From Bacteroidaceae bacterium (GTDB lineage: Bacteria > Bacteroidota > Bacteroidia > Bacteroidales > Bacteroidaceae): a DNA stretch of 56,015 nt. Within the stretch, counting starts at the first letter, position 1. Every line of letters begins with the position of its first letter. Under the pieces are notes generated by a model. That model was given only the letters and a program-made list of their open reading frames with translations. It had not been told where the DNA came from and did no database searches. The DNA is taken from assembly GCA_017965425.1 (NCBI GenBank), contig JAGCPY010000062.1, positions 1 to 56,015 of the forward strand. Direction: 5' to 3'. The position numbers and the translations under genes were made by a program. Of this stretch, positions 13,246 to 56,015 are shown piece after piece.

Positions 13246-13449
13246 CCCTCACTTCCTTCAATATCAAACTGTACTTCAAACACTTACGGGTGAGGAATTG
13301 GTGAGGGATAGGTGAGGGATGGTGAGGGATTTTGTTTTTCAGCGTTCCAGCCCTTTTGGGCGTTATTCCTCACCATCCCTCACCTATCCCTCACCAATTC
13401 CTCACCCGTAAGTGTTTGAAGTACAGTTTGATATTGAAGGAGGTGAGGG
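13246..13449. repeat. Large near-perfect inverted repeat (85-nt arms) of TCCCTCACC units
   Basis: Bases 13246-13330 pair with 13365-13449 around a 34-nt loop. Only two of 85 positions are not Watson-Crick pairs (13253/13442 and 13328/13367). The inner part of each arm holds four GGTGAGGGA-like 9-mers 10-11 bp apart, in the same order as at 1895-1935; the outer part is a unique sequence. The loop carries a small GCCC-TTTT-GGGC hairpin. It could fold as a very long RNA hairpin, act as a terminator of leftward transcription, or be a non-autonomous mobile element. Confidence 0.9.
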
Positions 13450-29904: not shown

Positions 29905-29920
29905 TATCCATTATCCATTG
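29897..29920. repeat. TCCATTA repeat across the hipB-hipA junction
   Basis: TTGT followed by three TCCATT(A/G) units; on the coding strand it forms the last residues and stop of hipB and the start codon of hipA. The same kind of unit (TCCATTG) is found inside the giant gene at 31895-31929. Confidence 0.55.
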
Positions 29921-31793: not shown

Positions 31794-34700
31794 TCATTTC
31801 ATCACTACCTTTCTACCATTATGAATATATATTCCCTTCTGTGCGGGCTTGCCATTGACCCTGCGACCGTCGATGGTGTACCACGCGCCAGCCTCATTGT
31901 CCATTGTCCATTTTCCATTGTCCATTGAGACGATGCCCGTCTCTGTATCATCCCCGAAGTTCAGCACGAAGGCTTTGACGGGAGATGACGGATCCGTCGG
32001 GTCACCCGCTGTGATGCCGTTCAGCTGGAAGTAGGCGCGGAAGGGTTTGATGGTGGTCGGACTGGTGCCGTCGGGGTAGTAGAGCGAGTTCTCAGCTCCG
32101 AGGAAGAGGACGCTCTTGTCGGCGGTGCTGAACGAGATGGGGCCGTAGGTGCCCGTGAAGGTCACGGTGCCGTCGTTGCTGGTGACGGTCTTGCTGACAT
32201 TGGCATCGTTGCTGCTGATGTCAATGGTCACATTAGAGAATGTTGGGCTTTCGATGTACGGGTGCTCGGTGTCATTCGCCCACTTGATGATGTACGGCTC
32301 ACCGGGCATGATGTGGGTCAAACTGTTCTGCGGCGTGAAGTAGAGGCGTAGCGTGCCTGTTGTTTCGTCGAAGCCAGTCTGATAAGGTGTGTCATCCTCC
32401 TCCGGCTCCTCGCCCTCAACTGGCTCCACGCCTTCATCTGTGTCATCGCCTTCAGATGACGGATCCTGAGCATTGAAACGGGAGTAGATATCAAGACCGC
32501 GGAAATCGGTACCATTGCCAAAGAAACTAATAATTTCTGACGGACCGAGCATGAACGGCAGACAGATCGTGTTCCAGTCGCCGTCCTTCCACAGCTTGCG
32601 GCCGGTAAGCTGAACGCTTGTCCTGATGCCGTTCCAGTCCGCAATGGTCTTGCTGTTGTCCTGACCGTCGGGCAGTTCCAGGATGAAGTCATCGGGCATA
32701 TCCTTCCAGACGAAGGTCATCGCCACGGGCGGAGCGGGAATCACAGCGTATGTGAAGTTTGGACTGTTGTCATCTGCTTCCACAGTGGAAACCAATTCGC
32801 CGTTGGCACCTAAGACGGTCCAGCCGCTGTAGCTCCACGTGCCGTTACTCCATGAGCCCTCATAAGTATTGGTGTATGTTCTGCCCTTGTTCAGCTCCAT
32901 CTCCTTCGTCACGGCCATGCCTGCGGGCAGGGTCAGCTTGCTGATGCCTGATGTGCCGAACATCCGCGTCATGCTTGTCCCTTCGCTTACATGGAAGCCT
33001 GACAGGTCGATTTCGCGCAGGTTGCTGCAGCCCTCGAACATGCTGTTCATATAGTTGATTTGGTACGTTTCCCAGCCCGTCAGGTTCAGCTTCTGCAGGC
33101 TCGAGCATCCACTAAACATCTCCGATGTGGTGACCAGTCCCGCAGTGTTCACGTTGCTCAGGTCCATCTCCGTGCACCCTGTGAAGTCCTTGAACAGCTG
33201 GCTGCAACTCTGGGTGAAGCGCACGCCCTCGTCGGCAATCACCTTCGTCACATTTTCCGGATGAGCCAGCACGTCTGTGTCAAAGGCGGTTCGGTTGATG
33301 ATGTTGAAGTCGCCGTACTTCAGGTGCAGCACGCCGTTCTCAAAGCTGTACTGCTTCTTGAACGTCACGCTGACGGTCACGTCGCTGTTAGGCATGGTGA
33401 AGAAGCCGTACTCTCCATCTATCTCCACCTCAATAGCGTTGTTGTTGGCATCCGTCACCGTCACTTCATCTAACAGATAGTAGGTGTTGGGCGTGATGTG
33501 TATACCTACCACGGCACCCGCACGGCTTTCATCTTTCACAACGGCCGAACCATTCGTCACGGTAGCCAAGGCAATGTCGAACGACGAGGCATTCGCATTA
33601 AGGATAGTCACGTCTTCGCCTGGAGTAGGCATCACCAATGTGCACTCTTCATGGTCTTGCGTAAACGTGCCGGCGGTGGAGGTAAAGGCCACGTATGGGC
33701 GGTTCACCGTGAATCTCAGCGTCTCGCCCTGTGCCGCATAGAGGTTGCCGTTCCATGATGCGCCCGTTGTGCCCGTCAGCGTCAGGTTCACGTCCGCGCC
33801 CGTCACCTTGTAGGCCAGCTGGGGTACAGTCGTCCAAAGGTTTGGACCGGATTCCTGACTCTTGTCAAACGTGCTATAGATATTGGTTACCGTGGTGGGC
33901 TCTGTCAGGCCGCGGCCGATGGGGTCGCTTTTGCTAAGATCCAGGCAACGGGTTAGTGTCAGCTGTGCGCCCGTCTCATCCCAGCCCACAAAGGTGCCGT
34001 TGTAAAGAACTGTCATACTGGTATACGGAACAAAGAAGCCGCCGCGGAACACACAGCCGTCCAAAGTCGTGGTGTAGCTGCCTGCATGGGCCACGAAACC
34101 GCCGTTGTATCCGCCGGAGGAACCGATGCTTGCACTCACCTCGCAGTTTTGAATCAGGTTGCCGTCGCCCTTCACGTAGCCTACGAGGCCTGAGCTGTAC
34201 CCCTGGCCTATCACCGTGCCTGCCACCTTCAGGTTCCTGATGGTGGCGCCGCTGATGGTGTGGAACGGCGCAACGCCTTGCATGTTCTCGTTGATGTCGG
34301 CGGTCAGGGTACAGCCATAACCATTGAACGTTCCGCTGAAGGGATTCTGTTCCGTGCCCATCATCTTCCGGACCTTTATGTCGGCAACCAGCGCAAAATA
34401 CATGCCGCTGGTTGCGGCGCCCGTTTCAATGTCCTCTGCCAGCAGATTCCAGTCTTCTTTACTCTTAATCATATAGGGGCTCGCCTCCGTACCCTCGCCG
34501 TGATTAGCATAGCGACACTCCAATACGGCCTCCGTGGCAATCTCATCATTCACCGTACGGATATATCCGAACCTGTTTAAGTGGCCTCCTTCTGGTATGA
34601 GCAATGTGGCATCGGTTGAGACACTGCCGCCAGACATAGCATACTGGCCGCCAGTCATCTCCACCCTCGTGGTCATCATGCCATGCTCCAACGTGAGGAC

Positions 34701-37661: not shown

Positions 37662-37727
37662 ATTGGTAGTGAGTTATTTGTTATACTGGGGGGTTATATG
37701 TGAGGGTGAGCGGAGGCATGGGGGGAT

Positions 37728-38195
37728 TTATAAAAGTGCAACATGCCCGATGACGCGCCTTATGCTGGAGGCGGCAATGCCGAGTTGGCTGAGGATGCTC
37801 TCAAAGCGGCTGCGTTCGCGGTCGGGCACTTCGAGCCGGTACATCACCACCTCGTCGTCGCTTCCAGACTGAGCGTAGATCTCCTGCAACAGTTCACGAA
37901 GCTCGCGGGCAATCTCGTTGGTGGGGGAGCCGCTGAGGGCCTTGGCAATGAGCTGCTCGGCATCACGGTAGCGTCCGCACTGGATGGCAAGGCTGGCTGC
38001 ACTGCGGTAGAGGATGGAGAGACCCGGCTCGGGGTTCTGCATAAAGTCGGCCAGGAGGGCGGCCTCTCGCTCTTTCTCGAAGGCCTCGGTGTAGAGGCTC
38101 AGGCTCTGCTCACCCTTGGGGTCGGCCTTGTCCGCGATGTCGCCCTGAAGGGCAAGGTCCATCGCCTCGTTGTGTAGGGTCTTGATATCTTTCAT
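37728..38195 (-). CDS. TPR-like soluble protein, function unknown
   Basis: 155 residues, all helical, no signal peptide. MKDIKTLHNEAMDLALQGD at the start, EAFEKEREAALLADF near 38-52, SILYRSAASLAIQCGRYRDAEQLIAKAL near 60-87 and EIARELRELLQEI near 94 give a degenerate TPR arrangement seen in proteins of many Bacteroidetes and cyanobacteria. The last 40 residues (MYRLEVPDRERSRFESILSQLG) are a separate basic region. The upstream gene is the 66-residue peptide (103 bp away); the downstream gene is the 1955-residue giant (66 bp). The cytoplasmic protein among secreted giants may be regulatory, but nothing shows this. Confidence 0.75.
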   Translation of the reverse strand: MKDIKTLHNEAMDLALQGDIADKADPKGEQSLSLYTEAFEKEREAALLADFMQNPEPGLSILYRSAASLAIQCGRYRDAEQLIAKALSGSPTNEIARELRELLQEIYAQSGSDDEVVMYRLEVPDRERSRFESILSQLGIAASSIRRVIGHVALL

Positions 38196-38298
38196 GATGC
38201 GTACTATTTGATGCAGACGATTACGCTGTGTTAGACGAATCCTGAGGTCTGAGGTCTGTTTCGAACAAAAATTTTTTCTGTGGGAGTTCGGTTTGCAC

Positions 38299-38499
38299 TT
38301 ACTCGTCCCAGTCGTCCCAATCGACGGTGGTGCCCTTCACGCGGGCAACGCCACCTGCGTTGTTAGAGCTGCCGCCGCCGTAACGCAGGCTGCTACCCTC
38401 ATCCATGTTCGTGTTAACATTTTGCACACTCTGAGCTACCATGCTCTCGGTTGCCACGTTGACCACCATGGTCGCAGGCTTCGAATAATACTTTTTCAT
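38299..38499 (-). CDS. Small peptide, YxKPA-type, unknown function (66 residues)
   Basis: MKKYYSKPATMVVNVATESMVAQS, then a Gly/Ser/Asn-rich middle (GGGSSNNAGG) and an acidic WDDWDE end. The N-terminal pattern K-x-Y-x-x-P-x-x-x-V-x-x-x-T-E-x-x-x-A-x-S is one I associate with many short Bacteroidales proteins of unknown role. It has neither a signal peptide nor a membrane segment. A leader-plus-core layout as in modified peptides is possible, but no modification enzyme is encoded in the window. It sits next to a MITE-like repeat and among the giant genes. Confidence 0.7.
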   Translation of the reverse strand: MKKYYSKPATMVVNVATESMVAQSVQNVNTNMDEGSSLRYGGGSSNNAGGVARVKGTTVDWDDWDE

Positions 38500-38504
38500 A
38501 GGTT

Positions 38505-38660
38505 AAGACCCACCCCCAGACCCCTCCCGTCAGGGAGGGGAGCGGCTAGCGCTTGGAAGTCTATAGGGTCATTCTGTTATGAGTTAATCTTTTCTTATTT
38601 CTTTCTACCCGCAGGCTCCCTCCCTGACGGGAGGGATGCCCTTTGGGCAGGGTGGGTCTT
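38505..38660. repeat. MITE-like element with 11-bp terminal inverted repeats
   Basis: AAGACCCACCC at 38505-38515 is the exact inverse of GGGTGGGTCTT at 38650-38660. Inside are hairpins CCCCTCCC/GGGAGGGG (38521-38540), CCCTCCC/GGGAGGG (38618-38635) and TGCCC/GGGCA (38637-38649). The last base overlaps the stop codon of the 1816-residue gene. No ORF. The CCCTCCC-TGAC-GGGAGGG palindrome also occurs within the neighbouring coding regions. Confidence 0.75.
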
Positions 38661-41600
38661 TACTTTATTACAATTTTCTTGCCGTTATGGATGTAGATAC
38701 CGCGAGGAAGCCTACCCCGACCCTCCCCAGAGGAGGGAGTATTGTGGGAGAGGCTTACCTTGCGTCCACTCATGTCATACCACGCGCCAGCACTCCCCTC
38801 TCTCACGGGAGAGGGGTTGGGGGTGAGGCTGTCTGTTGTTTCATCATCCCCGAAGTTGAGCACGAAGGCTTTGACTGTGGCACTGGGGTCGGTGAGCTTG
38901 AAGTAGGCACGGCAGGCGTTGAGGTAGTACTTGCCGTCAGCGTTGTTGGCGGCATTGGGATAGAAGAGCGTGTTGGCAGCACCGAGGAAGAGGTTGCTCT
39001 TGTCATCAACAGGGAGGGCAACAGGGTTGTATGTGCCCACGAACTGCCCGCCGGTGAAGGTGATGGGGGTAGGTGCCGAGGCATCGATGGTCACGTCCTT
39101 GAACACGGGGCTGACGATGTTTGTATTATCAAATTCGATGGAGGGCTTCAGTTTCAGGTGTTCGTTTTCATCTATTGTCCACTGATTGCCGAGGAAGTTG
39201 GCTAATCTTTCATCACCTGAACCTATCAATGTGTATTTGTCTCCCTGCTCGATGTTACTATCATTATGGTGGCAGTTGGAGACGGTGATGGTGCCGCCGT
39301 CCGTCCGTACAAGATTGAGGTTAATAGTAGCGCCCGTGGAGTCAAAAGTGTAGGAGTAGGTCCCAACAGTCCAGCAGGTCTCGGCAGTGAATATGCCGCC
39401 GTCGGAGCCACCGCCACAGAAGACTCCGATGGCCTGGCCACTGAGTGAACCGTTCAGATAGCAGTTCGAGATAGTGACGGCCGAAGTGGTGCCGTGACCC
39501 AAAATGCCGCCGATGTTATTACCCTGACTCGTCACCGATGCAGCCATCCAGCAGTTGCGAATGCTGTTTGTGCCTCCCACGGCTGCACCCACAATACCGG
39601 CGCAATACGGACCGCCAGACACGGAGCCTGTGACCCTCAGATTGCAGATGGTGGCGCCATTGATGTAGCAGAACGGAGCAGCGTACGCAACGCCTGTTTC
39701 GTCTATGCTGAGGTTGAGCGTGTGGCCGTTGCCGTCGAAGATGCCGCAGAACGGGTGTTCGGCCGTACCTGCCATGGTCGAGACATCGATGTCGGCAGCC
39801 AGCCGCACCAGTTTGCCGGCATACGACGTGCCGTTGTTCACGGCTGATGCAAAGCTTTCCCATTTTGAGGCATTATCGATGACGATAGTGGGATGTTGCC
39901 ACTTGACGAGATAGGGCCGTCCGGCCTCGATGCTAAACGCTTCCTTGAAGTTCAGCGTCAGCGTACCATTGGTCAGGTTCGATGTCGTACCATCCAGTTC
40001 CATGATGGTGACACCGGCTAAGGGTGAGGAGGCTATCTGCGCTTCGTTTAGGCTGAAGGGCAGACACAGCGTGTTCCAGTCATCGTCGCGGTAGAGCGTT
40101 CTGTCTTTAAGGACAACCGTCCTGTCGTGCGTCCGGCCGGAACTGACAGCCGACGCGATGGTCTCGCTGTTGTCCGAGCTATCGGCCAGTTCCACCCTCA
40201 TTCCGGCGTAGAGCGTCACATTGCCGTCGGCATTGAAGGGAATGACGGTGGCTGGCGAGGTCAACGTCTCATCGTTGTACCAGTTCACAAATCCTTCGTC
40301 GAGGGAGGTGCGGTCGTAGCCGTAAGCGGCATGGAAGGCCTCGTTAGCCGTGTTGTTTGTATCGAGCAGCATTTCACTGGTATCTGCGAAGGGGCTGTAG
40401 GTACCCTCGAACTGACCACAGGAAAGGTTGGCAGGCGTCGGGGCGTTGCTGCTGACGGTCACGCGCTCGAACAAGGGATCCTGGATGTCCGTAGAGAGCA
40501 GGTCGGCAGACGGTTTCAGTACCACATTAATATTATCATCTGATGTCCATTGATCACCGAGACAGCTAACAATTGGTCCACTGCCAACCATGAATCCTAT
40601 CTGGTCACCCTGGGTGATACGATCGTCATTATGGGAGCATTTGGTGAGGCTGACCTCACCGCCGTCCGTCAGGAACAGATTAATAGTAATGCTCGTACCA
40701 TTGCTGTACGCTCCAGAGGTCCAACAGTTCGAGATGGCGTTGGTGCCGCCGGAGGAACCTCCGCAGAAGACGCCGATGGTCTGGGCACTGAGGTTACCGG
40801 TCAGGTAGCAGCCAGAGATCGTGACGGACGAGGTGGTGCCATGCCCCAGCACACCACCGACATAATTCTGGTTCGTCACCGTTGCAGCCATCCAGCAGCT
40901 GCGGATGTTGTTCGTGCCGCCCAAGGCCGCACCCACGATGCCAGAGCAATACTGCCCTCCTGAGACAGCGCCCGTGACCTTCACATTGCAGATGGTGGCG
41001 CCATTGATGTAGCGGAACGGCGCAGCGTAATCAGCACCTGAATTGTCAATGCTGACGTTGAGTGTGTGGCCATTGCCGTCGAAGGTGCCGCAGAAAGGGT
41101 GTTGCTCCGTGCCCACCATAGTCGAGACATTGATGTCGCTGTCTAAAGTCACATACCTTCCGGCGAAGCTCTCACCTGCAGCTACGCGAGAGACCAGTGC
41201 GCCCCACTCGTTATCATTGTGGATGACCAGATCGGCACCTTTAGGCAATTGGACGATATACGGCTTGCCGGCTTCGATGCTTGAGACCTCGGTGAAGTTC
41301 ATCGTCAGCACATCGTTGCTGAACCCCGACCCCGTCAGCTCCTTCACCGTGGCTCCTTCCAGCGGCGTGCCGCTGAAGGTGATACCGTCTGTGTCATCGC
41401 CATCGGCCACGTCGAAAGGCAGGCACAGCGTGCTCCAGTTGCGGTCGCGGATGAGCTTGAAGTCCTCGAGAATCACATCGTGCTTCTTCCCGTCGGCAAG
41501 GGCGGCGATGCCGGCGTTGTCGGCCAGGGATTTGAAGTCCTCGGTGGTGAAGGATTGCAGTTGTGACCAAGAAGAGACAGAGCTGTATAATTTGGACCGC

Positions 41601-44110: not shown

Positions 44111-44180
44111 GTTTTTTATCGTTTACGGCCGCAAAGATCCAACTTTTTTTGCGCACATACGCGTACATTGTCTATTAATT

Positions 44181-47100
44181 TTACTTAATCACGACTTTAC
44201 GGCCATTATTGACATAGATTCCCTTCTGTGTTGGCTTGCCGCTGAGGCGGCGGCCATTGAGGTCATACCAGCTGTCATCACCTAGAACCTTGAACTTTGA
44301 ACCTTGAACCTCGCCGACTCCGTCGGTGGGTCTTTCATCGCCGAAGTTCAGCACGAAGGCCTTGACAGCGTTGGGATCATTGGGATCCCCTGCCGTGATG
44401 CCGTTCAGCGTGAAGTATGCGCGGCAGGCGCCGATGGTGGTGGCGTTCTGGCCATCAGGATAGTAGAGGCTGCTGCCGCCGCCGAGGAACAGAACGCTCC
44501 TGTTCTCATCGGTGTAGATGACTGGGCTGTACGTTCCCACGAAATCGACATAGTCGGTCGATACGTTGGCGGTGGCGTCGCTCACGGTGACACCCGTGAA
44601 CACGGGGTTCACGATGCCAGATACCATCTTCGGCACGACATGGCCACCGCTTATCTCCCAACCGTCGCCGAGATTGCTAACAAGCGTTTCGTTGCTCATG
44701 CCGCTGGCATTAGTGCCCTGTGCACCACCGAGTGTCCGCGTGTAGTAACAGTTGGTGATGGTAGGAGCCGGGTTACCGTATCGGCAGATGGTTTGGCTGT
44801 CGCTCGTCGGCTCTGTCTCGCCGCTGGCGAGGGCTGCAGGGGCGTAGAGGCAGTTTTTGATGGTCAACGTAACACCGGTGGGTCTACGCCATCCCACAAT
44901 GCCGCCGCAAGAGGCTGTACCATTGGTGGTGAGTATCTTACCCGTGAAGGAGCAGTTCTCGATGGTGACTATGCCGCTGTTGTTGTCGATGCCGCCCACG
45001 ATGCCTCCATCGGCTGCATTGCCTTTGAAACCACTGGTGAAGGTAACGCTACTTACGCAGTTGGTGATGGTCAGTGCGCCATTAGTAAAGCCTACGAGAC
45101 CGCTGCAAGGATGGCCGTCTGTAGTAGTGACGCTACCGTCTACCTTCAGGTTGCGGATGGTGGCAGAACCTACGTAGCTGAATGGGGCGGTGTTATTGCT
45201 ACCACTAAGGGTGACGTTCAATGTATGGCCGCAGCCGTCGAAAGTTCCCTTGAAGGGATTATCACTGGTTCCCACCATTGTCGATACGCTGATGTCATCG
45301 GCCAGCAACACCTTTTTGCCCTGATAGGAATCGATACCGCTGTTCACATTGTCGGCAAAGGTATTCCAGTCTGCTGCCGAGCGGATGACTAGGTCGGCTC
45401 CCCATTTGACGATGTATGGCTTTCCTGCATCTATACGGTTGAGATTATTGGAGAAAGTCATCGTCAGCGTTCCGTCGCTGAAGGCGGTGCTTTCGAGCGT
45501 CTTCACGGTTGCTCCTTCCAGCGGTGTGCCGGTAAAGTTATAGAGGGCAAATGGTAGGCACAGTGTATTCCAATCGCCGTCGGTGTAGAGCGTGCGCCCA
45601 GCGAGGATGACGTCGTGCTTGTTGCCGTTAGCCGTACTGATGGCATTGCGGTTGTCGGTATTGTTGGCCAGCGTCAGCATGACCGTACCGCACCAGGTGC
45701 AGATACCTTCGGAATAGTTGTGTTCGTAACAGGGTTCGATTCTGACGGACTTGTTGTTGAGGCTTGAGATGCGTGATTCATGGTTGACGGGGGTGGTGTT
45801 GCTGCCTACGAATACGCTTTGCCCATCGGCGATGTATCTTGTGACATCTCCACCAGAGCTTCCCTTGCCGATGGCCTGTGATTCGCCATCCCTTCCTGTA
45901 GCATTGACAGTGCCGCCATAGATATTGACGGTGCCACCACCTCTATTGACACCACCTCCAATACCAGCAGACCAAGGTCCTCCAGTCGCTGTGATGATGC
46001 CACCATGGATGTTGATGTTGCCGCAATCGTTGGAATTGCCAACACTTCCGATGCCTGCGTTGTTAGGGTTTCCGCTGACGCTGGCTATCAACTTGCCGGT
46101 GCCGCCCAGCTGCGAGTAAATATTCAGTGTGTTGCCAGAACTAACAGTGATACCCATTGTGGCTGTCAACGTCTTGCTGTCGTAGAGAATCAAATTCACT
46201 GCGCCAGAGACTGTGACACGTTTGCTGAATGAGACATTGTTGGTGACCACATACCAGCCAGCGCTCAGTGTGATTGCGCTGTTGCTGGAGGTGACGGTGG
46301 TGGGGTTGTCTGGTACGGGAAGTCTTTCAAAGGCATGTAAACTAGTGTTGTATGCAAGATAGTAATCGCCAATCGCCCAGTTAGCCGTGTAGGAGAGGTT
46401 GCCGGAGGAACCGGTGGGGATGGTGACGGTGAGCTGCGGTGTGTCGCCATTGCTACCTGTCCAGCCGATGAAGGTATAGCCCTGCTTGCTTGGATTGTTG
46501 AGGGTGATGGCCTGGCTAACAATGGTGTAGGTCGTGGGGTTAGAAGTGGCCACACTGCCGCCGTCAAGATCGTAGGTGATGGCGAAGATTTCAGCCCACG
46601 TGGCGGTGTATGTGCGGTTGCCCTTTGAGCCTTTCGGTATGGTGACGGTCATGGTTGGTTCAGTGAGTCCGTTGCCCGTCCATCCGATGAAGACATAGCC
46701 GTCGCGGGTAGGATTGTTTAGGGTGATGGCCGCACTCAGTTCGCTGTATGTCGTGGGGTTGGGAGTGGCCACGGTGCCGCCGTCGAGGACGTAACTGATG
46801 GAGTAGAGTTCAGTCCACTTGGCGTAGAGATTCACTACAGCATCTTGTACGTTGGCTAGGTTGTTCACGCTCTGACCATCGGTGTAGGCCACTGCGCCGC
46901 TAGTGGTGGTGCTCCATCCAACGAAATCATACCCGTCGCGGGTGAAGGCGTTGGCAGTGAGTGCCTGTGCTATACCATAGGTGAATTCCTGGTCGCTATA
47001 AACGTCCTCGCCGCCGTCGTTCTTGTGGAAGCGGACGGTGTATGTGATGGGCATCCACTTGGCGTAGAGGGTGACCGAACCGCTGATGGTGATTGTTGCG

Positions 47101-50100
47101 CCGGGGGCGTAGTTGGTGCCAAGACCGTCGGCCTGAGTGTTCCATCCGCCGAAGGTGTATCCCGTGCGTACCAGACTGCCTGTATTGTCAAGGACGGTGA
47201 CGGTCTCACCGGGCAGACATGTGGCGCTGGAGGGGGGTACTGTTCCGCTTGTGGCGTTGTTGCTGTTGTAGATGACACTGCCGCAGGCGATGCCGCAATA
47301 GTCGCATTGATTGGTAGTGGTTTGGTGCTCCGTGCAAGGCGTGAGCGTGATAAAATCTTGGTTCTGGCTAAGACTCCACGATAGGTAGCCATACGTTTCG
47401 AGAGTGCCGCCAACATATATGCGGAATCCTTTGGCTATGTTCCTGGTGACAGCGGCTCCGCTGGAGCCGTGGCCAATAGCTTCTGAGCCAGTGTCATGAC
47501 CCCTGGCTTTGATGATGCCGCCATAGATGGTTACTGAACCGCCACCGCCATATACGCCACCGCCGATGCCAGCCGACCAGGCATTACCTTCAGCTGTGAT
47601 ACGACCGCCGTGGATGGTGATGTCGCCAACAGATGCGTGATTGTTGCTTCCAATACCTGCATTTTTATAAGGCTCATCTTGATTGTTTTGGTCGTATGCA
47701 GTGGCATTCAGGACACCCGTGCCGCCGCTCTGACCATAGATGGTCAATGAGTTGCCTGTATTCACCATGATGCCCTTGGAGGCGGTCAAAGTCTTGCCGT
47801 CACGGAGAATCAAGTGTACCGTACCCCTGACCTCAATACGACTACCCACGGTGACATTGCTTCTCACCACGTACCAGGTCTCAGTGCCGTCAGCACCCAT
47901 TGTCGTAGTGGACGCATTGATGGTGGTGGGGTCATCAACGGTATGCTCCACAAACGAGTGTGTGGCCGTCTGATAGACAAGATAGCTGACAGGCGCATAA
48001 GTTCCACAAAGCGTACAAACGTCGTCCACGTAGTTATGCGAGGTGCAGGGCATCAGCTTGGCGTATTTGGATTGACAGGTGCTCAGACGGTTAGCAGGAG
48101 CGACGGGACTCGAGGCATTTGCGCTGCTATAAACCTTCGTGCCGTCGATGATCAGCGTGCCTGCACTGATGCCGGTACCAGCTCCCGAACCGATGGCCTG
48201 ACTCTCGTCACCTGTGTATGCAGTTCTTGCCGTGGCCATGACCGTGCCACCGATGATGGTGACCGTGCCGCAGTTCGCGCCTACACCGCCACCGATGCCA
48301 GCACCCGTATCACCGCCCGTGGCATTGATGGTGCCGCCGTAGATGGTGATGGTGCCACCGTTACCGTTGCGACCGCCACCGATGCCAGCGCCCCAGTTAC
48401 AACCGATGGCCTCGATGCTACCGCCGTGGATGGTGATGGTACCGCCAGCCTCTTCATAATTGCCGCCAATGCCAGCCTGTCCGTCTGTCGTGGCAAAACT
48501 TTGGAGCTGGCCCGTGCCACCGCTCTGATCATAGATGTTGAGGGTCATGCCTGGTGCCACATGGAGTCCCTTCTCGGCTCTCAGCTTCTTGCCGTCGGCA
48601 AGAATCAGGTGTACTGTGCCGAGCACCTCGATGCGGCTGCTACTGATAGTGACGTTGTTGTTCAAAAAGTACCACGTCTCGGTATCAGCTTCACCCATCG
48701 TCGTGGTGCTTGCCGTAACTGAAATGCAACCAGTTGCAGCCAGTGTCTCGAAATCGCGTGTGGTGGTATTATAAGCACGGTAGGATACACTCGGTACCTC
48801 CACCTGGAGACTGCTGGTCATCTTCGGCACCACATTGCCTTCGCGAACTTCCCAGCCGTCACCGAGCATAGCTCTCAGTGTTTCGCCTGTGGCAGTGGTG
48901 TAAGTACCCTGTGAACCGATATTCTGTGTTTTGTAACTATTGGTAATGGCATTGTTATCGCCATAAGCCAATCTAAGATCTACGCAGCCGTAATAGGTAC
49001 CATCCGCCAGGCAATTGATGAGCGAGTTGTTGTTGCCCGCCCAGCCCTGGAAAATACCTACAGCACTACTGCCACCAGTGATGCTGCCCGAAAAACGGCA
49101 GTTGCGGATAGTATTGATGGAGCTGCTGGCATGACCAATGAAACCGCCGCAGTGCGAGCTGCTGCACGTTATTGCCACCCGCACATCGCAGTTTTCAATC
49201 AGATTTGGATTGCCAACCATGCCGCCAACGAGTCCCGAACAGTGTATGGCTCCGTTGATTGTTCCAGTGACAATCAGATTCTTGATAGTGGCGCCATACA
49301 CATGGTTGAAAGGTGCGGCATATGCATCTGATGAACTGAAATTGAAATTCAATATATGTCCGCAGCCATCGAAGGTGCCCCTGAATCTGTGGTTGGGGTT
49401 GCCGACTGGTGTCGATACGCTGATGTCGGCGGCCAGTTTCACCACCTTGCCCAAATACGACTCGGTGCTGCTGGTTACATTGCTGGCGAATGTGTTCCAG
49501 TCGGCAGCCGAAGTGATGATAAGGTCGGCATCCCCTTCATTGACCCACTGGGCGTAGAGTGTCACAGGCCCTTTATCCTCTGAGGTGGCCGTAAGAGTTG
49601 CCCCGTCAGCATAGGCTGTACCGCTGCCATCCGATTTGGTGTTCCATCCAATAAAGACATAGCCGTCACGGTACATGGTGTTACTTGTCAGCGTGCCACT
49701 ATTCTCAATGGTCTGCTGCGACATCTCGCCGCTGCCGCCGTTGTTGTCGAAGGTGATATGCTTGTAGTAGTAATAGTCCCATGTGTAGCTTTCGTTGGTG
49801 AATTCTGACCAACTCTCTACAAATTCTGCTCCATGAACAGCAACAACAGTCGTCATCATCAGCGCCCACGTCTTGGACTGTGCAGACGAGGAATTCCTGT
49901 TGTCAAAATCAAAGGAATTTGAATAGTTTTTGGTTTCCGTGCCCTTATCTTTTAGTGTACTACGATGGAGGCTATACTCATCACCGGTATGATCAGACCC
50001 ACCATCCGTAAAATCCACAGGCATAGCCTTGAGCGCGTCCACATCATCGCGGGCATACAAAGCCGTAGTATGCCAAGCTGTCGTTCCAGTGAAGCTTTGT

Positions 50101-50450
50101 TTCACCATGTAATTACAGTTCAGCCTCATTCGTGTGTAGGAAGGAACATTCTCTGTATGCCCAAAAAGCGTGTAAACGGCATTCTTTTTTTCACTACCAG
50201 GATTGCCTGATACAAAGGCGCCAAATTTATCAGTGTATTGGCGCATATACAAATTCTCCCAATGCGTATTGTTCAGTCCGTTGTAGGAAATTGAATAATT
50301 ACCCCAGAAGTCACAGCATCCTGAACGTTGTCCATACCATGTCCACGGTCCATTATCCGTAGCCCACGCTGTGGTGGTCATGAGTAGGAGGAGTAAACTC
50401 AAGACGATTCTCATCGTCTGATTTTTTGCAATTCTTGTCAGTCTTGTCAT
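44181..50450 (-). CDS. Giant surface protein (2089 residues) with beta-helix and Listeria-Bacteroides repeats
   Basis: Signal peptide about 12-31 (MRIVLSLLLLLMTTTAWA). About 235-300 and four copies near 1100-1350 are Listeria-Bacteroides (Flg_new/InlB-B-like) repeats, each with GYxFxGW and VTLYAKW-type ends. About 320-460 and 1660-1870 are GLUG repeats. Three right-handed beta-helix modules (about 590-800, 840-1050, 1370-1570) repeat AGIGGG, TITIHGG and TITIYGG strands; each is followed by a C-x2-H-x6-C-x2-C-G motif. The C-terminal module holds DWNTLCLPFAL, LFLGGGSSLYYPDG, KAFVLNFGDE, WYDLNGRRLSGKPTQK and the tail GIYVNNGRKVVIK. The ATG is 21 bp after the stop of the upstream giant gene, so they likely share a transcript. 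Function unknown; adhesion or matrix formation is plausible. Confidence 0.85.
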   Translation of the reverse strand: MTRLTRIAKNQTMRIVLSLLLLLMTTTAWATDNGPWTWYGQRSGCCDFWGNYSISYNGLNNTHWENLYMRQYTDKFGAFVSGNPGSEKKNAVYTLFGHTENVPSYTRMRLNCNYMVKQSFTGTTAWHTTALYARDDVDALKAMPVDFTDGGSDHTGDEYSLHRSTLKDKGTETKNYSNSFDFDNRNSSSAQSKTWALMMTTVVAVHGAEFVESWSEFTNESYTWDYYYYKHITFDNNGGSGEMSQQTIENSGTLTSNTMYRDGYVFIGWNTKSDGSGTAYADGATLTATSEDKGPVTLYAQWVNEGDADLIITSAADWNTFASNVTSSTESYLGKVVKLAADISVSTPVGNPNHRFRGTFDGCGHILNFNFSSSDAYAAPFNHVYGATIKNLIVTGTINGAIHCSGLVGGMVGNPNLIENCDVRVAITCSSSHCGGFIGHASSSINTIRNCRFSGSITGGSSAVGIFQGWAGNNNSLINCLADGTYYGCVDLRLAYGDNNAITNSYKTQNIGSQGTYTTATGETLRAMLGDGWEVREGNVVPKMTSSLQVEVPSVSYRAYNTTTRDFETLAATGCISVTASTTTMGEADTETWYFLNNNVTISSSRIEVLGTVHLILADGKKLRAEKGLHVAPGMTLNIYDQSGGTGQLQSFATTDGQAGIGGNYEEAGGTITIHGGSIEAIGCNWGAGIGGGRNGNGGTITIYGGTINATGGDTGAGIGGGVGANCGTVTIIGGTVMATARTAYTGDESQAIGSGAGTGISAGTLIIDGTKVYSSANASSPVAPANRLSTCQSKYAKLMPCTSHNYVDDVCTLCGTYAPVSYLVYQTATHSFVEHTVDDPTTINASTTTMGADGTETWYVVRSNVTVGSRIEVRGTVHLILRDGKTLTASKGIMVNTGNSLTIYGQSGGTGVLNATAYDQNNQDEPYKNAGIGSNNHASVGDITIHGGRITAEGNAWSAGIGGGVYGGGGSVTIYGGIIKARGHDTGSEAIGHGSSGAAVTRNIAKGFRIYVGGTLETYGYLSWSLSQNQDFITLTPCTEHQTTTNQCDYCGIACGSVIYNSNNATSGTVPPSSATCLPGETVTVLDNTGSLVRTGYTFGGWNTQADGLGTNYAPGATITISGSVTLYAKWMPITYTVRFHKNDGGEDVYSDQEFTYGIAQALTANAFTRDGYDFVGWSTTTSGAVAYTDGQSVNNLANVQDAVVNLYAKWTELYSISYVLDGGTVATPNPTTYSELSAAITLNNPTRDGYVFIGWTGNGLTEPTMTVTIPKGSKGNRTYTATWAEIFAITYDLDGGSVATSNPTTYTIVSQAITLNNPSKQGYTFIGWTGSNGDTPQLTVTIPTGSSGNLSYTANWAIGDYYLAYNTSLHAFERLPVPDNPTTVTSSNSAITLSAGWYVVTNNVSFSKRVTVSGAVNLILYDSKTLTATMGITVSSGNTLNIYSQLGGTGKLIASVSGNPNNAGIGSVGNSNDCGNINIHGGIITATGGPWSAGIGGGVNRGGGTVNIYGGTVNATGRDGESQAIGKGSSGGDVTRYIADGQSVFVGSNTTPVNHESRISSLNNKSVRIEPCYEHNYSEGICTWCGTVMLTLANNTDNRNAISTANGNKHDVILAGRTLYTDGDWNTLCLPFALYNFTGTPLEGATVKTLESTAFSDGTLTMTFSNNLNRIDAGKPYIVKWGADLVIRSAADWNTFADNVNSGIDSYQGKKVLLADDISVSTMVGTSDNPFKGTFDGCGHTLNVTLSGSNNTAPFSYVGSATIRNLKVDGSVTTTDGHPCSGLVGFTNGALTITNCVSSVTFTSGFKGNAADGGIVGGIDNNSGIVTIENCSFTGKILTTNGTASCGGIVGWRRPTGVTLTIKNCLYAPAALASGETEPTSDSQTICRYGNPAPTITNCYYTRTLGGAQGTNASGMSNETLVSNLGDGWEISGGHVVPKMVSGIVNPVFTGVTVSDATANVSTDYVDFVGTYSPVIYTDENRSVLFLGGGSSLYYPDGQNATTIGACRAYFTLNGITAGDPNDPNAVKAFVLNFGDERPTDGVGEVQGSKFKVLGDDSWYDLNGRRLSGKPTQKGIYVNNGRKVVIK
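44284..44310. repeat. GAACCTT/GAACTTT repeat translated in the C-terminal linker
   Basis: GAACCTTGAACTTTGAACC and continuation; on the coding strand it gives EVQGSKFKVLG between KAFVLNFGDE and WYDLNGRR. The unit is 7-8 bp in tandem and reads in frame. Confidence 0.7.
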
Positions 50451-50471
50451 ATTATTCTATGTTGTTGAGTG

Positions 50472-53400
50472 TTATTTGATGATTACCTTCTTGCCGTTAT
50501 GGATGTAGATACCGCGAGGAAGCCTACCCCGACCCTCCCCATAGGAGGGAGTATTGTGGGAGGGGCTTACCTTCCGTCCACTTATGTCATACCACGCGCC
50601 AGCCTCCTCTCTCCCTGACGGGGAGGATACGAGGGTGGGACCTTCTTCGCCGAAGAACATCTTCACGTTGTTGGGATCGATGTTGGCGGCGGAGATGCCG
50701 TTGAGCTGGAAGTACGCACGGAAGGGGTTGATGGAGGCACCGGACTCGGGATAGTAGAGGGTGTTTTCTGCGCCCAGGAAGAGGATGCTGTGGTTGTCCG
50801 CATTGAAGGTGATGGGGGCGTAGGTGCCGGTGAAGGTGACCTTGGTGGTCTCCACATTACGGGCTGCACAATCGATGGTGACGTTTTCGAAAAGTGGGTC
50901 TTTTATGTCCCAGGTATAGGGGTCGCATGCATCGTAGCCTTCAGCCTTCTCCCAACGAATAATATAAGGTGTACCGGCAGTGAGTGTCTGAACAGGCTCG
51001 CTGAAGTTGAGGGTCAGCGTACCGCCAGCGTATGAAGCACTGCTGAGGGTACGAGCCTCGGCACCGGCCAAGGGGCTGGCAGCAATCTGTGCGGCACTCA
51101 GCGAGAAGGGCAGGCACAGCGTGTTCCAGTCGCCGTCCTTGTAGAGCGTGCGGTCGGCGAGGGTGACGTTAAACTCACTGCCGTCGGCGGCAGCCTTGCT
51201 GATGACATCACTGTTGTCTGCATTGTTGGCCAGGATGAGGTCGTAGAGGGTGGTGAACATGATGGGGCTGCTCCAGTTGCTGGCACCTTCGGTACCGCCG
51301 TCAACTTGCACCTGAACTTCGTAGGTGGTTCCAGCGTACAAACCAGTTAGCTCGCTTGAGTTCGTGGTAGAGGTAACCATATTCTCAGGGCCGTATGTGT
51401 AAGTCTCATACACACCGAAGTCATCAATGAAGAGGAAGTCTTTTCCTGTATCGGTATGACGGATGGCAATGTAGCCTTGTTGACCTGCGTATGCCCTCAG
51501 GTCAACTATTCTTTCTGCCCACGAACCATCCCCTGGGGCAAGATCAGGTTCTTCAACCATAACGAAATCACTGATGGTGTTGGTTCCGGTGGAGACATAC
51601 ATGGCAAAGTATTCTTGATACCCACTGTTGTCTCCCGCTACCCAGAACTTCAGGACATCGCCCAGCGTCATTTGGGGTGACACCAGCCAGTTGTCAACAC
51701 TGACATCCTTACCACCATAATAACTCCTTGACATCGCTACGTATTCGCCTGAATGGGCAGAGCTTTGATAATTTTGATCTTGCTTTGTAAAGCAATCCCC
51801 TCTCATCTGCTCCCACGTGTCCTTATTATATGGACCGACGGCGTATGTCGTCCAGTTGCCAAGGCCATTTTCGAAGCTATCGAAAAAGACCTCATTCATA
51901 GAGTACGTTACCTCTCTATACTTCACCTTAAAGTTCTCTTCATCGCTGTTCCAGCTGATGGTCGCCGAGTTGGCAGCGATGTCGCTGGCGGCCACATTGG
52001 CAGGAATAGGAATCATTTCGGTATGGAAAGTCACTACGTTGCTCCATCTACTTTGATCTATCTCGTCTATGTAAGCGCGAACCTTCACTGCATATTCAGT
52101 GTCAGGCATTAAACCAGACAAGGTGTAAGGATTGGTGCTGACCAGCGTCAGGTTGCTCTCATCGCCATTCATACAGATCTGCCACTGTGTAGCTTCGCCG
52201 TTCTCTGTCCAGTTCAGTTCAACACTTCTTGTGCCTGGGGTACCAGCGGTGAGATCCGTTGGCTTGGGACAAGCTTCGGGAGTGGTAAAATGGAAGGCTT
52301 CGCTCCAAGCTGAGGTTTCGTTTTCGCCAACACCCTGCACTAAGACAACGTAGTCCGTTTCTTTCTGCAAGCCGGTAAAACTGTAGCTGTTGACATGAGA
52401 GGTGTAAACGCCCAATGCTGCCGTCTGGTCGACAATTCGAATGTCATCTACATAGAAGCAGTCATCGAATCCGTCGAAGCTGCCATCCTTGGTATAATAC
52501 CAGCGAAGGGTGTGAGTGCCGGCAGTGAGAGGGTACTCATAATCTATCCAGTCGCCATCGCCGGAGATACCTTTGATTCTATTGTTATCATCAATAGAGA
52601 AGTAAGCCTTGTCATAATCATTTTCCGATGAGACCTTTGCCGAGAAGGTGAGGGTCTTATCAGTCGCCAAGGTCACCGTGAGAACCATGTCGGATTCCGA
52701 ACCTTCGTTGTCTTCGATGCCGTTGTTTGTACTCTTGGCGCACCAAGAGCCGCTATGGTTGTTTCTCACCACCGTCCAAGGATAACTGCCGGTGGCAGTG
52801 ATGTCAGCCTGGCTGAGGTCACCCGTCTCGAAGTCGGCATTGGCAATGTATCTTTCTTCACCCAATACGACGTTATAGCTGTCGGAGGAGCCCGTCCAAC
52901 TCACAGTGGCGCCATGAGCGGTAAGGCTGTTTGCAACCAGGGCCAGGTCGGCAGGCGCCTGGATGTGTCCCAGCGTGGTGAAGCGGATGGTATTGCTCGG
53001 TGGTGTGTCGCTGCCAGGGCTCTTCACACGCACTGCGTATGTCGTCGCAACGTTAAGGTTATCAAAGCTATAGGGGCTGGTGGCATTGTTGTCCACCGTC
53101 GTCCAGACATAACGGGATTCGTCGCCGAGAGGCATGACCTCGGCCATTTCCAGCCTGCAGCTTTCCGTGACTCCTGTCCAGCTCACTGTGGCACCGTCGT
53201 AGGTCTGGCTGTTCTCAACAAGTGTGAGGACAATCTGGGGTACCAGAGACACGGTCAGGTCAAAACCAGGATCACCATCATCCATGCCGTCACATTCAAA
53301 ATAGAATGTGATGCTGTTGCCGGAGCTGAGAATGGGAGCGACAGTCCTGTCTCCCCAAACACTGTTCAGGAGCATCTCGCTGTCCGTGGAAGCGCCATCG

Positions 53401-56015
53401 TAGATGGATAATTCATCACAACTTTCGTAAGTATGAATCGCGCCTTGCAGACGGAACACATAGCCTTCAGGACAGGTCAGTGTGAGGGTGCTGTACTCAT
53501 CCCCAGAATAATGATCATTATAATCTGGATCATTGTTATTCCACGAATTCGCATAATCATACTTCTTTCCACCGCTGTCATACACCTTGAACGGACGGGT
53601 GAATCCTTCGGGGATGACTACGGTTTTGGGATTGTGTTCGACAGGGATGGTTTCTATGTATTCAGATTCACCAGTTTCTTCGTTATATCGTTCTATTGGA
53701 TATTCCTCTCCCGGCATATTCACATAGAAATATCCGTCTTCGTCTTCCTGGAAGTCATGGTCAATTTGCAAGGGGAATGTGTTCCCATTGTCTTTATACA
53801 CATAGAAGTGTACGGTCTTTGCGCCTGTATAGTCGCCCATACCTGTGACTGTCAGCGTATATTCACCAAGATTTATCACCGAAGAAGCAGTGCCTTCGGC
53901 GTTCGAAATGACGAGGCTATAATCAGAGCCTTCATACAGCAGATCGCCATAGAAATTCTTTACGGTGTAGCTGACCGCAATCTCATCTCCTGTCCAGGAA
54001 ATGACAGGGGAATAGACGATGATAGCCGACCTCAAATCATTCGCACTGATAAAGGGAACAACGAACTCTTCGCCCATCACACTCCAGCTATCGCCCAGAC
54101 TGCTGCGGAGCGTCTCGCCCGTAGCCTCGGTCGGTGTGCCCTGGGCCTCACCGTAAGCCGTGTGGTAGTAGCTGTTGGTAAGGGTGTAGGAACTGTTTTC
54201 TGACTCTGGCAGATAGAAGGTACCGCTGCTGTCCGGATAACAGTTCAAGACTCCGTCCATCAGACAGTTGGTGAACTTCACTGTTCCCGACTCGCGCCTG
54301 CCGAGGAAACCGCCACAGTTTGACATATACTCTGCGTTGATGGTGCCGTCAAAGAGGCAGTCGATGAAGTGGAGCGTGCCAGTACTCTGGCCTACCATGC
54401 CGCCAGTCACAGGGGTTTGCGCTTCCCAGTCTCGAGCGGTGCTGTTGACGGTCACGCTGCTGTAGCACGACTGCAGCGTCGTGGACCCTTCGGCCCTGCC
54501 CACGATACCGCCCGCACGGGAATTTCTGCCGGCATCGATAGTGCCCATGGTGCGCAGATACCGGATGGTGGCACCGTTGACGTAACTGAAGGGAGCCAAA
54601 GGAGGCAGCACCTTCACAACGGGTTCTTCGGGTTGTTCGGATTCTCCAGATTGTCCGGATTCTCCAGACTCTCCGGTTTCTCCAGATTCTCCAGATTCTC
54701 CAGATTCTCCAGATTCTCCGGATTGTCCATTCTCATTGTCTTCAATCGATATATAAACAGCTTCACCGTTCCCCGGCTCTACGTATGCTGATTCTTCTTC
54801 AGCATCCTCTACGGCCAAGTCGATTGTCAACGTACGGGATGCACCCTCAAAGGTGCCTCGGAACGGATTTGTCTCGGTGCCCATCATGCGGCTGACTGTG
54901 ATGTCGCTGCCTAACAGATAATGGCAGGAAGCGAGACCGTCCTTGTCCGAGCTGACGTAGTCGCACAGCAGATCCCATTCCTCAGCAGTGTTGATGATGA
55001 AAGGATAATCGGCAGTGCCGTCGGGCGTGTAGCTGTCGGTCTTGCCGAATCCCTCGGCAATCCACGGCTCCCACTGGGCATAGAGGGTGATGACGGTGCC
55101 GCTGGCGGTGGTCAGGTTCTCCACCGTCTTACCGTCGGCGTATGCCGTGCCGCTGCCGTCGGGCTCGGTGTTCCAGCCAGCAAAGTTGTTGGCGGTGCGG
55201 GTAAAGGTATTGGCTGTCAGGTCAACAGGTGCGTCGCCGTAGGTGAAGTGCATGTCGGCCATCGCCTCGCCCGTGCCACCATTGGCATCGAAGTGAATGG
55301 TGTAGGTGCTCAAGGCGACAGGACTGCTGGTGCTGAAGACCACATTCTGTGCGGGCATGGTCAGTGTGCCATTGGCGTAGGTGCCTGCACTGGGCACAAT
55401 GGTAGCATCCTGCGGACTATAACCCGTAGTAATCATCAGTTCGTCAATGGGAACTTCCACATCTGCGGGGCCATAATAGACTCCATCCAACAGCAAGCCG
55501 TCGCCCTTAAACGTGATGCCGCTGTGGTAGGTGATGGCGCTGTTTCCGCCTACACTCAGGTCAATGCCTTCGGCAGCGGTGACGCTATAGAACGGCGTGC
55601 CTTGATTGACGGTGAGCGGCTGTGTATAGCTGCAGTTCGTGATGGTGCCGCCAGCGCAGAAGGTAGCACTGTTGTCGCCCTCGGTGGTGTTGAGTGTGAC
55701 GGTCCTTGGGGTGAAGAAGCTGCCCGTGATGTTGACCGTCCCATCGCGACGTTTGCCCACAAAACCGCCACAGTTGCGAGTCGTGGCACCGATGATGCTG
55801 CCATCGAACAGGCAGCCATCGATGTTGGTGGTGCCGCTACTGACGGCTACAAAGCCGCCGTGCTCTCCGGCACCGTTGTAGCTGCTGTTGATGGTCAGGC
55901 TGTTGCGGCAACCCGTGATGGAAATGTCGCCTTCGGCATAGACGATGAGGCCAGCAGCGTGTTGGTTGCTGGTGTTGAAGGTGCCGGCAATGTTCAGGTT
56001 CTTGAAGGTGGCATC
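50472..56015 (-). CDS. Giant surface protein, at least 1847 residues, 5' end outside window
   Basis: The frame is open to the right edge; the first visible codons read DATFKNLNIAGTFNT in a GLUG/beta-helix pattern, so the start and signal peptide are missing. In order: beta-helix; one Listeria-Bacteroides repeat (DNA about 55300-55070); GLUG region with a (GES)n insert; an MBG-like strand set (54030-53800); a CUB-like domain (53480-53260); Fn3-like domains (53240-52960, 52280-52030) around jelly-roll domains (52840-52420 and 51900-51400, the last like the cleaved-adhesin family); DWNTLCLPFSL near 51120; LFLGAENTLYYPE; WYDISGRK; and the tail GIYIHNGKKVIIK. It is the first visible gene of the leftward giant cluster and is 21 bp from the next. 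Confidence 0.85.
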   Translation of the reverse strand, partial: DATFKNLNIAGTFNTSNQHAAGLIVYAEGDISITGCRNSLTINSSYNGAGEHGGFVAVSSGTTNIDGCLFDGSIIGATTRNCGGFVGKRRDGTVNITGSFFTPRTVTLNTTEGDNSATFCAGGTITNCSYTQPLTVNQGTPFYSVTAAEGIDLSVGGNSAITYHSGITFKGDGLLLDGVYYGPADVEVPIDELMITTGYSPQDATIVPSAGTYANGTLTMPAQNVVFSTSSPVALSTYTIHFDANGGTGEAMADMHFTYGDAPVDLTANTFTRTANNFAGWNTEPDGSGTAYADGKTVENLTTASGTVITLYAQWEPWIAEGFGKTDSYTPDGTADYPFIINTAEEWDLLCDYVSSDKDGLASCHYLLGSDITVSRMMGTETNPFRGTFEGASRTLTIDLAVEDAEEESAYVEPGNGEAVYISIEDNENGQSGESGESGESGESGETGESGESGQSGESEQPEEPVVKVLPPLAPFSYVNGATIRYLRTMGTIDAGRNSRAGGIVGRAEGSTTLQSCYSSVTVNSTARDWEAQTPVTGGMVGQSTGTLHFIDCLFDGTINAEYMSNCGGFLGRRESGTVKFTNCLMDGVLNCYPDSSGTFYLPESENSSYTLTNSYYHTAYGEAQGTPTEATGETLRSSLGDSWSVMGEEFVVPFISANDLRSAIIVYSPVISWTGDEIAVSYTVKNFYGDLLYEGSDYSLVISNAEGTASSVINLGEYTLTVTGMGDYTGAKTVHFYVYKDNGNTFPLQIDHDFQEDEDGYFYVNMPGEEYPIERYNEETGESEYIETIPVEHNPKTVVIPEGFTRPFKVYDSGGKKYDYANSWNNNDPDYNDHYSGDEYSTLTLTCPEGYVFRLQGAIHTYESCDELSIYDGASTDSEMLLNSVWGDRTVAPILSSGNSITFYFECDGMDDGDPGFDLTVSLVPQIVLTLVENSQTYDGATVSWTGVTESCRLEMAEVMPLGDESRYVWTTVDNNATSPYSFDNLNVATTYAVRVKSPGSDTPPSNTIRFTTLGHIQAPADLALVANSLTAHGATVSWTGSSDSYNVVLGEERYIANADFETGDLSQADITATGSYPWTVVRNNHSGSWCAKSTNNGIEDNEGSESDMVLTVTLATDKTLTFSAKVSSENDYDKAYFSIDDNNRIKGISGDGDWIDYEYPLTAGTHTLRWYYTKDGSFDGFDDCFYVDDIRIVDQTAALGVYTSHVNSYSFTGLQKETDYVVLVQGVGENETSAWSEAFHFTTPEACPKPTDLTAGTPGTRSVELNWTENGEATQWQICMNGDESNLTLVSTNPYTLSGLMPDTEYAVKVRAYIDEIDQSRWSNVVTFHTEMIPIPANVAASDIAANSATISWNSDEENFKVKYREVTYSMNEVFFDSFENGLGNWTTYAVGPYNKDTWEQMRGDCFTKQDQNYQSSAHSGEYVAMSRSYYGGKDVSVDNWLVSPQMTLGDVLKFWVAGDNSGYQEYFAMYVSTGTNTISDFVMVEEPDLAPGDGSWAERIVDLRAYAGQQGYIAIRHTDTGKDFLFIDDFGVYETYTYGPENMVTSTTNSSELTGLYAGTTYEVQVQVDGGTEGASNWSSPIMFTTLYDLILANNADNSDVISKAAADGSEFNVTLADRTLYKDGDWNTLCLPFSLSAAQIAASPLAGAEARTLSSASYAGGTLTLNFSEPVQTLTAGTPYIIRWEKAEGYDACDPYTWDIKDPLFENVTIDCAARNVETTKVTFTGTYAPITFNADNHSILFLGAENTLYYPESGASINPFRAYFQLNGISAANIDPNNVKMFFGEEGPTLVSSPSGREEAGAWYDISGRKVSPSHNTPSYGEGRGRLPRGIYIHNGKKVIIK
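50516..50632. repeat. Palindromic repeats translated in the C-terminal linkers
   Basis: 50521-50566 (CCTCCCCATAGGAGG and flanks) matches 38709-38753 nearly base for base, encoding SPSHNTPSYGEGRGRLPR. CTCCCTGACGGGGAG at 50611-50626 is a degenerate copy of the palindrome in the MITE-like element and encodes part of SSPSGREE. Confidence 0.7.
54640..54729. repeat. 9-bp tandem repeat, ten units, in coding sequence
   Basis: GATTCTCCA-type units (variants GATTGTCCG, GACTCTCCG, GTTTCTCCA) in tandem, giving a (G-E/Q-S)n stretch in a GLUG region. Four consecutive units at 54685-54720 are nearly identical. Change in number would keep the frame. Confidence 0.85.

Follow-up and report, generated by a model that had tools for sequence, protein, structure and literature searches.

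Translated repeats of extragenic type in the spacer of predicted T9SS short CTDs from a Bacteroidaceae genome and its relatives

In Rickettsia, palindromes of extragenic type are read in frame inside unrelated proteins, and these palindromic elements are longer than the spacer repeat units described here. The spacer palindromes investigated in this work are similar in that they occur in frame within genes and also between genes, but differ in that a single position class receives several unrelated repeat families. Insertion of the Rickettsia type, at many unrelated positions and genes, was not observed, as 1 of 521 control windows was repeat-derived. Arrays of TAACTGA and other heptanucleotides (PMC4679880) are tandem 7-mers located mainly between genes that give a repeating translation; the arrays reported here share these features but consist of other heptamers and are concentrated at one sorting-signal site. 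REP, BIME and REPIN palindromes (PMC2817692, PMC3116915) are short and present in many copies, some as inverted pairs, as is also observed here, with the differences that some copies are translated and no link to a REP-associated transposase was found. As is typical of REPs, the palindromes in the genome of origin, Bacteroidaceae bacterium GCA_017965425.1 (the source genome), are dispersed and mostly extragenic, with 82 copies of the pattern and none of its reversed control. A tyrosine transposase flanked by REPs was not detected, the palindrome being absent from the 3,339 and 3,222 bases around the two Y1_Tnp genes of this genome.

The protein tails that follow the repeats resemble the short CTDs of P. 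intermedia (Ye et al. 2025, PMC11969387), the source of the motif names used here. In that species PorU cutting prefers PT/GI, and Motifs B, D and E come after the cut. Of the cut sites, five short and four long ones have been determined there, with the predicted or identified cuts located within a flexible linker. The likeness extends to the Tyr, Gly and Arg/Lys of Motif B, the GxY followed by Ile of Motif D, a basic Motif E and a total length of 43-55 aa, and may extend to PT/GI with Ile most conserved and to a cut within a flexible linker. The distance from cut motif to Motif B is 6-11 aa in P. intermedia, whereas T[GSA][IVL] lies at a median of 17 aa in the heptamer-bearing tails and 15 aa in other module tails examined here, although the two counts may set the boundaries differently. 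No mention of spacer repeats occurs in the covered parts of the same paper. In P. gingivalis, PorU cutting of the CTD is said to be sequence-independent and attachment of the anchor to depend on linker length in one cargo (PMC4804311). A search by title and start of abstract among open-licence papers found none on repeats in T9SS CTD spacers.

The window analysed is the whole 56,015-nt stretch of contig JAGCPY010000062.1 from the source genome. It carries four giant genes, all of which share a C-terminal module and tail, and in each the spacer preceding WY(D/T)xxGR is distinct. The features are as follows.

31794..37661, (-) strand: giant gene 1, C-terminus TETGIVSMDNGKWTMDNEAGAWYTIDGRR
31794..31883, (-) strand: protein 1 Motifs B, D and E of the predicted short CTD, with the stop, WYTIDGRRVNGKPAQKGIYIHNGRKVVMK
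31884..31931, (-) strand: protein 1 spacer, TCCATTG heptamers, tract 31892-31929, translated VSMDNGKWTMDNEAGA, preceded by T/GI
38502..38663, strand not assigned: inverted-orientation pair of the gene 2 spacer palindrome family, at and just past the gene 2 3' end, copies 38521-38540 and 38617-38636
38660..44110, (-) strand: giant gene 2, C-terminus TTDSLTPNPSPVREGSAGAWYDMSGRK
38660..38782, (-) strand: protein 2 Motifs B, D and E, the first two separated by a second palindromic insert
about 38708..38756, (-) strand: protein 2 second palindromic insert, ends AAGCCT/AGGCTT, between Motif B and GIY
38783..38839, (-) strand: protein 2 spacer, REP-type palindrome 38795-38816, translated LTPNPSPVREGSAGA
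44181..50450, (-) strand: giant gene 3, C-terminus PTDGVGEVQGSKFKVLGDDSWYDLNGRR
44181..44270, (-) strand: protein 3 Motifs B, D and E
44271..44318, (-) strand: protein 3 spacer, GAACCTT heptamers, tract 44279-44314, translated GEVQGSKFKVLGDDS
50472..56015, (-) strand: giant gene 4, C-terminus PTLVSSPSGREEAGAWYDISGRK, 5' end open and beyond the window
50472..50594, (-) strand: protein 4 Motifs B, D and E, including a second palindromic insert
about 50520..50568, (-) strand: protein 4 second palindromic insert, between Motif B and GIY, DNA nearly identical to the protein 2 insert
50595..50640, (-) strand: protein 4 spacer, REP-like palindrome 50611-50625 with 5-bp arms, translated VSSPSGREEAGA

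Motifs B, D and E occur in this order at the C-terminus of all four window tails; elsewhere their order is the parsing rule and so is not independent. Tandem Repeats Finder detected 7-nt arrays in the four giant genes solely at the spacers of proteins 1 and 3, and the spacer of protein 4 was missed by our hairpin rule, which requires 6-bp arms. In the AlphaFold model of protein 1, the two blocks that contain the spacer (residues 201-220) have mean pLDDT values of 57 and 65, and the tail 89-95. Giant protein 4 also contains a 9-nt tandem array at 54611-54736, where a weak collagen-repeat match is found (PF01391, E 0.001, below cut-off). An initial annotation of this DNA had described one C-terminal module with four differing linkers, and the module, the linkers and their coordinates are confirmed here, with FVLNFGD present in three of the four proteins. 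The same holds for the TCCATTG linker of protein 1, tracts of this kind being above chance (see below), for the palindromic linkers of proteins 2 and 4 and for a second palindrome between Motif B and GIY in two of the proteins. The GAACCTT linker was recovered as an array but not as a member of a local extragenic family, since GTTCAARGTTCAARGTTCAARG, with up to 1 mismatch, matches nothing in the source genome except the protein 3 linker itself. This linker is also found in the homologous gene of locus L193.

The tails are predicted to be T9SS short CTDs, composed of a PorU cut motif (consensus PT/GI), the spacer, Motif B (WYDxxGR), Motif D (GIYI) and Motif E (GKKVxxK), an assignment that rests on motifs and context because curated sorting-domain models and a fold search fail to confirm the tail. 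The source genome encodes matches above cut-off to SprA_N, of the T9SS translocon, and to the T9SS_sortase (PorU) model, the latter at 971.9 bits against a cut-off of 420. A 31-residue tail consensus gave 110 matches in this genome and a four-row alignment 90; 88 of the 110 were parsed as tails, and the module-type tails of this genome number 14. Curated models call few tails even at E up to 1 (TIGR04183, 2/66; PF18962, 1/66), and PF18962 gave 13 matches in the source genome, one over cut-off and none at a module-type tail. The fold search with the tail returned no match at E <= 0.001. At the profile level, one PDB chain, the endo-arabinanase 4kca, matches the tail region with an E value of 4.8e-6.

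The repeat-filled spacer is more general than the four window proteins. A scan of named genomes, using search patterns drawn from tail and module and not from the spacer, yielded 80 loci from uncultured or metagenome-assembled Prevotellaceae, Prevotella, Bacteroidaceae, Bacteroidales and Bacteroides, the animal, where titled, being a ruminant. Nine of the 80 loci fail the tail regex and enter no count, and by eye about six of these nine look repeat-derived. Further searches, with queries that contained a spacer, found matches in 23 of 61 genomes (source and relatives) and, across the family, in 90 of 201 genomes and 12 of 30 genera. With duplicates removed, the total set comprises 176 module-type tails, defined by a loose regex (14 from the source genome, 82 from the 80 loci, and further sets of 20 and 60); these tails share ancestry and the counts are not independent events.

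Periodicity of 7 nt is observed directly at the DNA level. In the 48 nt before Motif B of 91 tails from the 80 loci, self-identity is 0.410 at lag 7, 0.368 at lag 14 and 0.350 at lag 21, compared with 0.217-0.264 at lag 7 in windows 72 to 576 nt upstream in the same 91 relatives. The lag-7 value is 0.295 in the 88 source-genome tails and 0.458 in a second set of 75 tails partly overlapping the first, being 0.521 in genus g41 (38 tails) and 0.393 in the others (37 tails). Random synonymous recoding of the same peptides in the 176 tails gave 0.318 (sd 0.004) at lag 7 vs 0.426 observed. With a tract defined as 15 of 21 matches at lag 7 and controls taken as windows within the same genes, heptamers were detected in 65 of 176 spacers and in none of 521 control windows, an enrichment of linkers over the rest of the genes that the initial annotation had put up for testing. 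Positive spacers numbered 2/14 in the source genome, 34/82 in the 80 loci and 4/20 and 25/60 in the remaining sets, and 0/39 control windows from the 14 source-genome tails reached the threshold. Three rules combined (heptamers, palindromes, nonamers) class 86 of 176 spacers as repeat-derived (5/14, 50/82, 6/20 and 25/60 in the same order) and 1 of 521 controls, leaving 90 spacers unclassified as repeats. The effect is weakest in the source genome and its genus set, all source-genome spacers pooled (4,272 nt) containing 3 lag-7 tracts. Overall, the two outcomes named in advance as contrary to the proposal, conserved linkers that do not resemble intergenic repeats and repeats equally common elsewhere in the genes, do not describe the data. 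Near 5714-5820 of locus L198, heptamers fill the spacer and a stretch beyond Motif B, and the usual GIY motif is absent there, so that the repeat seems to have entered the signal itself.

The repeats are of a type found mainly between genes. In the 80 loci, lag-7 tracts per 100 kb amount to 611 in spacers (27 tracts), 40 in intergenic DNA (40), 2.5 in other coding sequence (17) and 37 in tails (3), and the corresponding densities in the source-genome DNA examined are 70, 16 and 2 for spacer, intergenic and other coding sequence. A codon-usage test, which calls known coding positions coding in 74/79 cases (later 70/79 in the source genome and 79/81 in relatives), assigned the lag-7 tracts of the 80 loci as 27 spacer/tail, 51 noncoding and 9 coding, whereas at lags 6 and 9 the coding tracts outnumbered the noncoding ones by 19 to 3 and by 27 to 14. 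ORF tiling was discarded as a test in favour of codon usage, as 29 of 41 palindrome copies in L149-L178 lay inside ORFs, several of them near an ORF start or in doubtful frames. The nine coding tracts in the 80 loci, such as L181 7028-7069, L197 8145-8224, L248 7721-7757 and L253 3305-3343, lie outside CTD spacers; further repeat-tolerant protein sites may exist. The suggestion that linkers resemble intergenic repeats held for the 80 loci, where a 148-kb intergenic pool was matched at >=36 bits by 27 of the 82 module-type spacers, compared with 0/82 adjacent upstream windows and 3 to 7 of 77 to 82 windows further up; an equal-size coding pool was matched by 6/82 spacers, 14 adjacent upstream windows and 6 to 35 windows further up. 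It did not hold for the source genome, where the contrast is lacking (3/12 spacers match intergenic DNA and 5/12 the coding pool, which can contain related tail genes).

Among the palindrome matches listed (of 82), 53 distinct sites were distinguished. A two-flank coding test is passed by 3 of them, including the gene 2 spacer; two further sites are CTD spacers that fail it because a stop is near. nhmmer with a single palindrome seed returned five matches, two below E 0.001, one of which is the seed's own site. Three consecutive exact TCCATTG units gave 9 partly overlapping matches on 4 contigs of the source genome (reversed control, 0), and on the contigs other than C43 the array of C38 passes the coding test and the others fail. 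A 20-mer pattern of AATGGTC was matched 124 times, with partial overlap, in 6 of the 9 genomes searched and its reversed control not once, and 17 of its 19 distinct sites in the 30 loci listed fail the coding test, two of these being CTD spacers (L382, and L388 by eye) that fail only through a nearby stop. Intergenic nonamers, e.g. GGACTCAAAGGACTCAAAGGAC and AATTCGTGTAATTCGTG, resemble by eye spacers translated TKDFKD and TNYTN. Other arrays were also observed. The 11-nt unit ATCCCTCACCA and its complement form extragenic arrays, often as inverted pairs (window 1893-1989 and 13289-13406; L005, L022, L033, L070, L083 and others), and are the commonest intergenic tandem repeats of the source DNA examined, 43 kb of which holds 25 intergenic tracts at lag 11; the CTD spacers of the source-genome DNA examined showed none at this lag. 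A TCCATTA array of 2.9 units at window 29900-29919 overlaps the start codon of a 372-aa ORF, 28786-29904(-).

Spacers accept one repeat in either orientation and are replaced between close relatives. Read one way, the AATGGTC heptamer gives MVNGQWS-type peptides (13 spacers), and read the other way it gives IDHSPLT-type peptides (8 spacers). Both orientations are present within genomes G125 and G143, and palindromes are likewise read in both orientations, as LTPNPSP and PLALGRGAGG. Since one heptamer yields unrelated peptides at this position within a single genome, it is the DNA rather than the peptide that is accepted. Turnover was followed in 201 tails with the cut motif as anchor, among which 23 pairs have upstream flanks at least 80% identical. 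In 8 of these 23 pairs the spacer has fallen to random-pair identity, 7 of the 8 bearing unrelated repeats and the eighth, L343/L358, one heptamer at two lengths, and in 9 it is conserved at 0.89 or more. The seven replaced pairs stem from only five loci (L189, L190, L204, L226, L303). Two L204 paralogues, for example, are 0.87 identical in the upstream flank, 0.38 in the spacer and 0.80 in the tail, and the L189 paralogues carry two different kinds of heptamer. In L204 and L222, from two different genomes, approximately 60 nt past the stop, including an inverted repeat, are almost identical and the spacers differ.

The position of the repeat was compared with the predicted PorU cut. In the 65 heptamer-bearing tails, T[GSA][IVL] was located upstream of or touching the tract in 47, solely inside or after it in none and was absent in 18; of the 47, 5 have a tract starting at the motif or as much as 2 residues into it, and 2 have a matched motif 17-18 residues away. 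The motif is also present in 83 of 111 heptamer-negative module tails, and among the four window proteins T/GI occurs in protein 1 only. The cut site is placed by a motif taken from another species. The position of the tract suggests that the repeat should leave with the signal, which, if PorU cuts at the motif, would explain its tolerance and argues against a diversified mature protein. The initial proposal that repeats diversify the spacer tying the protein to its signal is therefore not supported, because the repeat is on the signal side of the predicted cut. The notion of one site that takes mobile repeats in frame again and again is supported for the single site, the open frame, the repeated occurrence and the many genomes but not for mobility, as no mobilising enzyme, empty site or target-site duplication linked to spacer repeats was found.

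Combined, these observations lead us to favour, with reasonable though far from complete confidence, a repeat spacer that is a disposable, sequence-tolerant stretch between the predicted PorU cut and Motif B and that has repeatedly received extragenic repeats. The spacer would be a coil that is required to exist but may have almost any sequence, and with PorU presumably cutting upstream of the repeat it would be lost together with the CTD. Extragenic repeats, be they 7-nt arrays, 9-nt arrays or REP-type palindromes, would be tolerated in either orientation while the frame stays open, at a spacer that is probably functionally indifferent, and would enter by copying from extragenic sites. Replacement may occur in episodes, so that close relatives with similar flanks can bear unrelated repeats.

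Exchange by recombination could produce a similar pattern, the spacer repeats serving as joints through which paralogues swap CTDs, cargo bodies and spacers, in the manner of exon shuffling. This idea stems from pairs in which the exchange goes beyond the spacer. Compared in 30-column steps, window genes 2 and 4 are nearly identical (0.93-1.00) from the spacer end to shortly before the stop under diverged bodies (0.23-0.73 upstream); the L257 paralogues are alike at the module end and in the spacer (0.97-1.00) and differ in the tail (0.33-0.57 once Motif B begins); and L029/L034 identity, 0.83-1.00 over most of the module, falls to 0.70-0.50 near the module end and is 0.60-0.70 in the tail. 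It is nevertheless unlikely, though conceivable, given that the spacer alone changed in six of the seven replaced pairs, where tail identity is 0.78-0.83, the tail of the seventh being at the background level of 0.66. Homogenisation of tails within genomes was likewise rejected, as g41 tails are equally alike within genomes (0.629, 117 pairs) and between them (0.628, 379 pairs). We regard as unlikely the wider proposition that extragenic repeats landing in the spacer let short CTDs and cargo bodies recombine genome-wide, the secreted repertoire growing via repeat-filled joints as in exon shuffling through introns.

Expansion in place, in which a 7-nt slippage bias makes heptamers wherever selection permits and spacers come to resemble intergenic DNA without copying, draws on a 2007 survey, summarised in PMC4679880, in which most genomes had heptanucleotide arrays as their commonest class of long simple repeats, and on the pair L343/L358 (flanks 0.88 identical, not counted as replaced), which by eye carry the same heptamer and differ in length by 7 residues, or 21 nt, i.e. 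three units. It is distinctly unlikely, as an identical heptamer sequence, an 82-copy palindrome and nonamers that are also intergenic all recur at the spacer, and single 7-nt steps would break the frame. Frame disruption is itself the basis of a phase switch, in which gain or loss of one heptamer would drop the sorting signal and turn surface display on or off. Seven is not a multiple of three and the array directly precedes the signal, but the arrays are short and imperfect, and in all loci examined, overlapping loci included, 110 tails are in phase with the upstream module and none is out of phase, leading us to reject phase variation as next to negligible. A translated repeat selected for a function of its own, e.g. 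binding or glycosylation, would fit peptides that by eye are often of polar appearance, with many Asn, Asp and Ser residues; selection at this level is very improbable, since within one genome the two orientations of a heptamer produce unrelated peptides at this position, and palindromes and nonamers yield still other peptides.

Thus, in many secreted proteins of rumen bacteria related to Prevotella, spacers hold translated repeats that normally lie between genes, probably since the stretch is cut off and discarded, and our best reading is that in this bacterial family the spacer is a rare intragenic site tolerating extragenic repeats. Short CTDs missed by curated models can be sought by using a 7-nt period in coding DNA as a marker. 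The family also offers a natural experiment on which part of the T9SS signal varies freely, the spacer apparently accepting almost any sequence, and in it DNA of extragenic type becomes protein again and again at one site.
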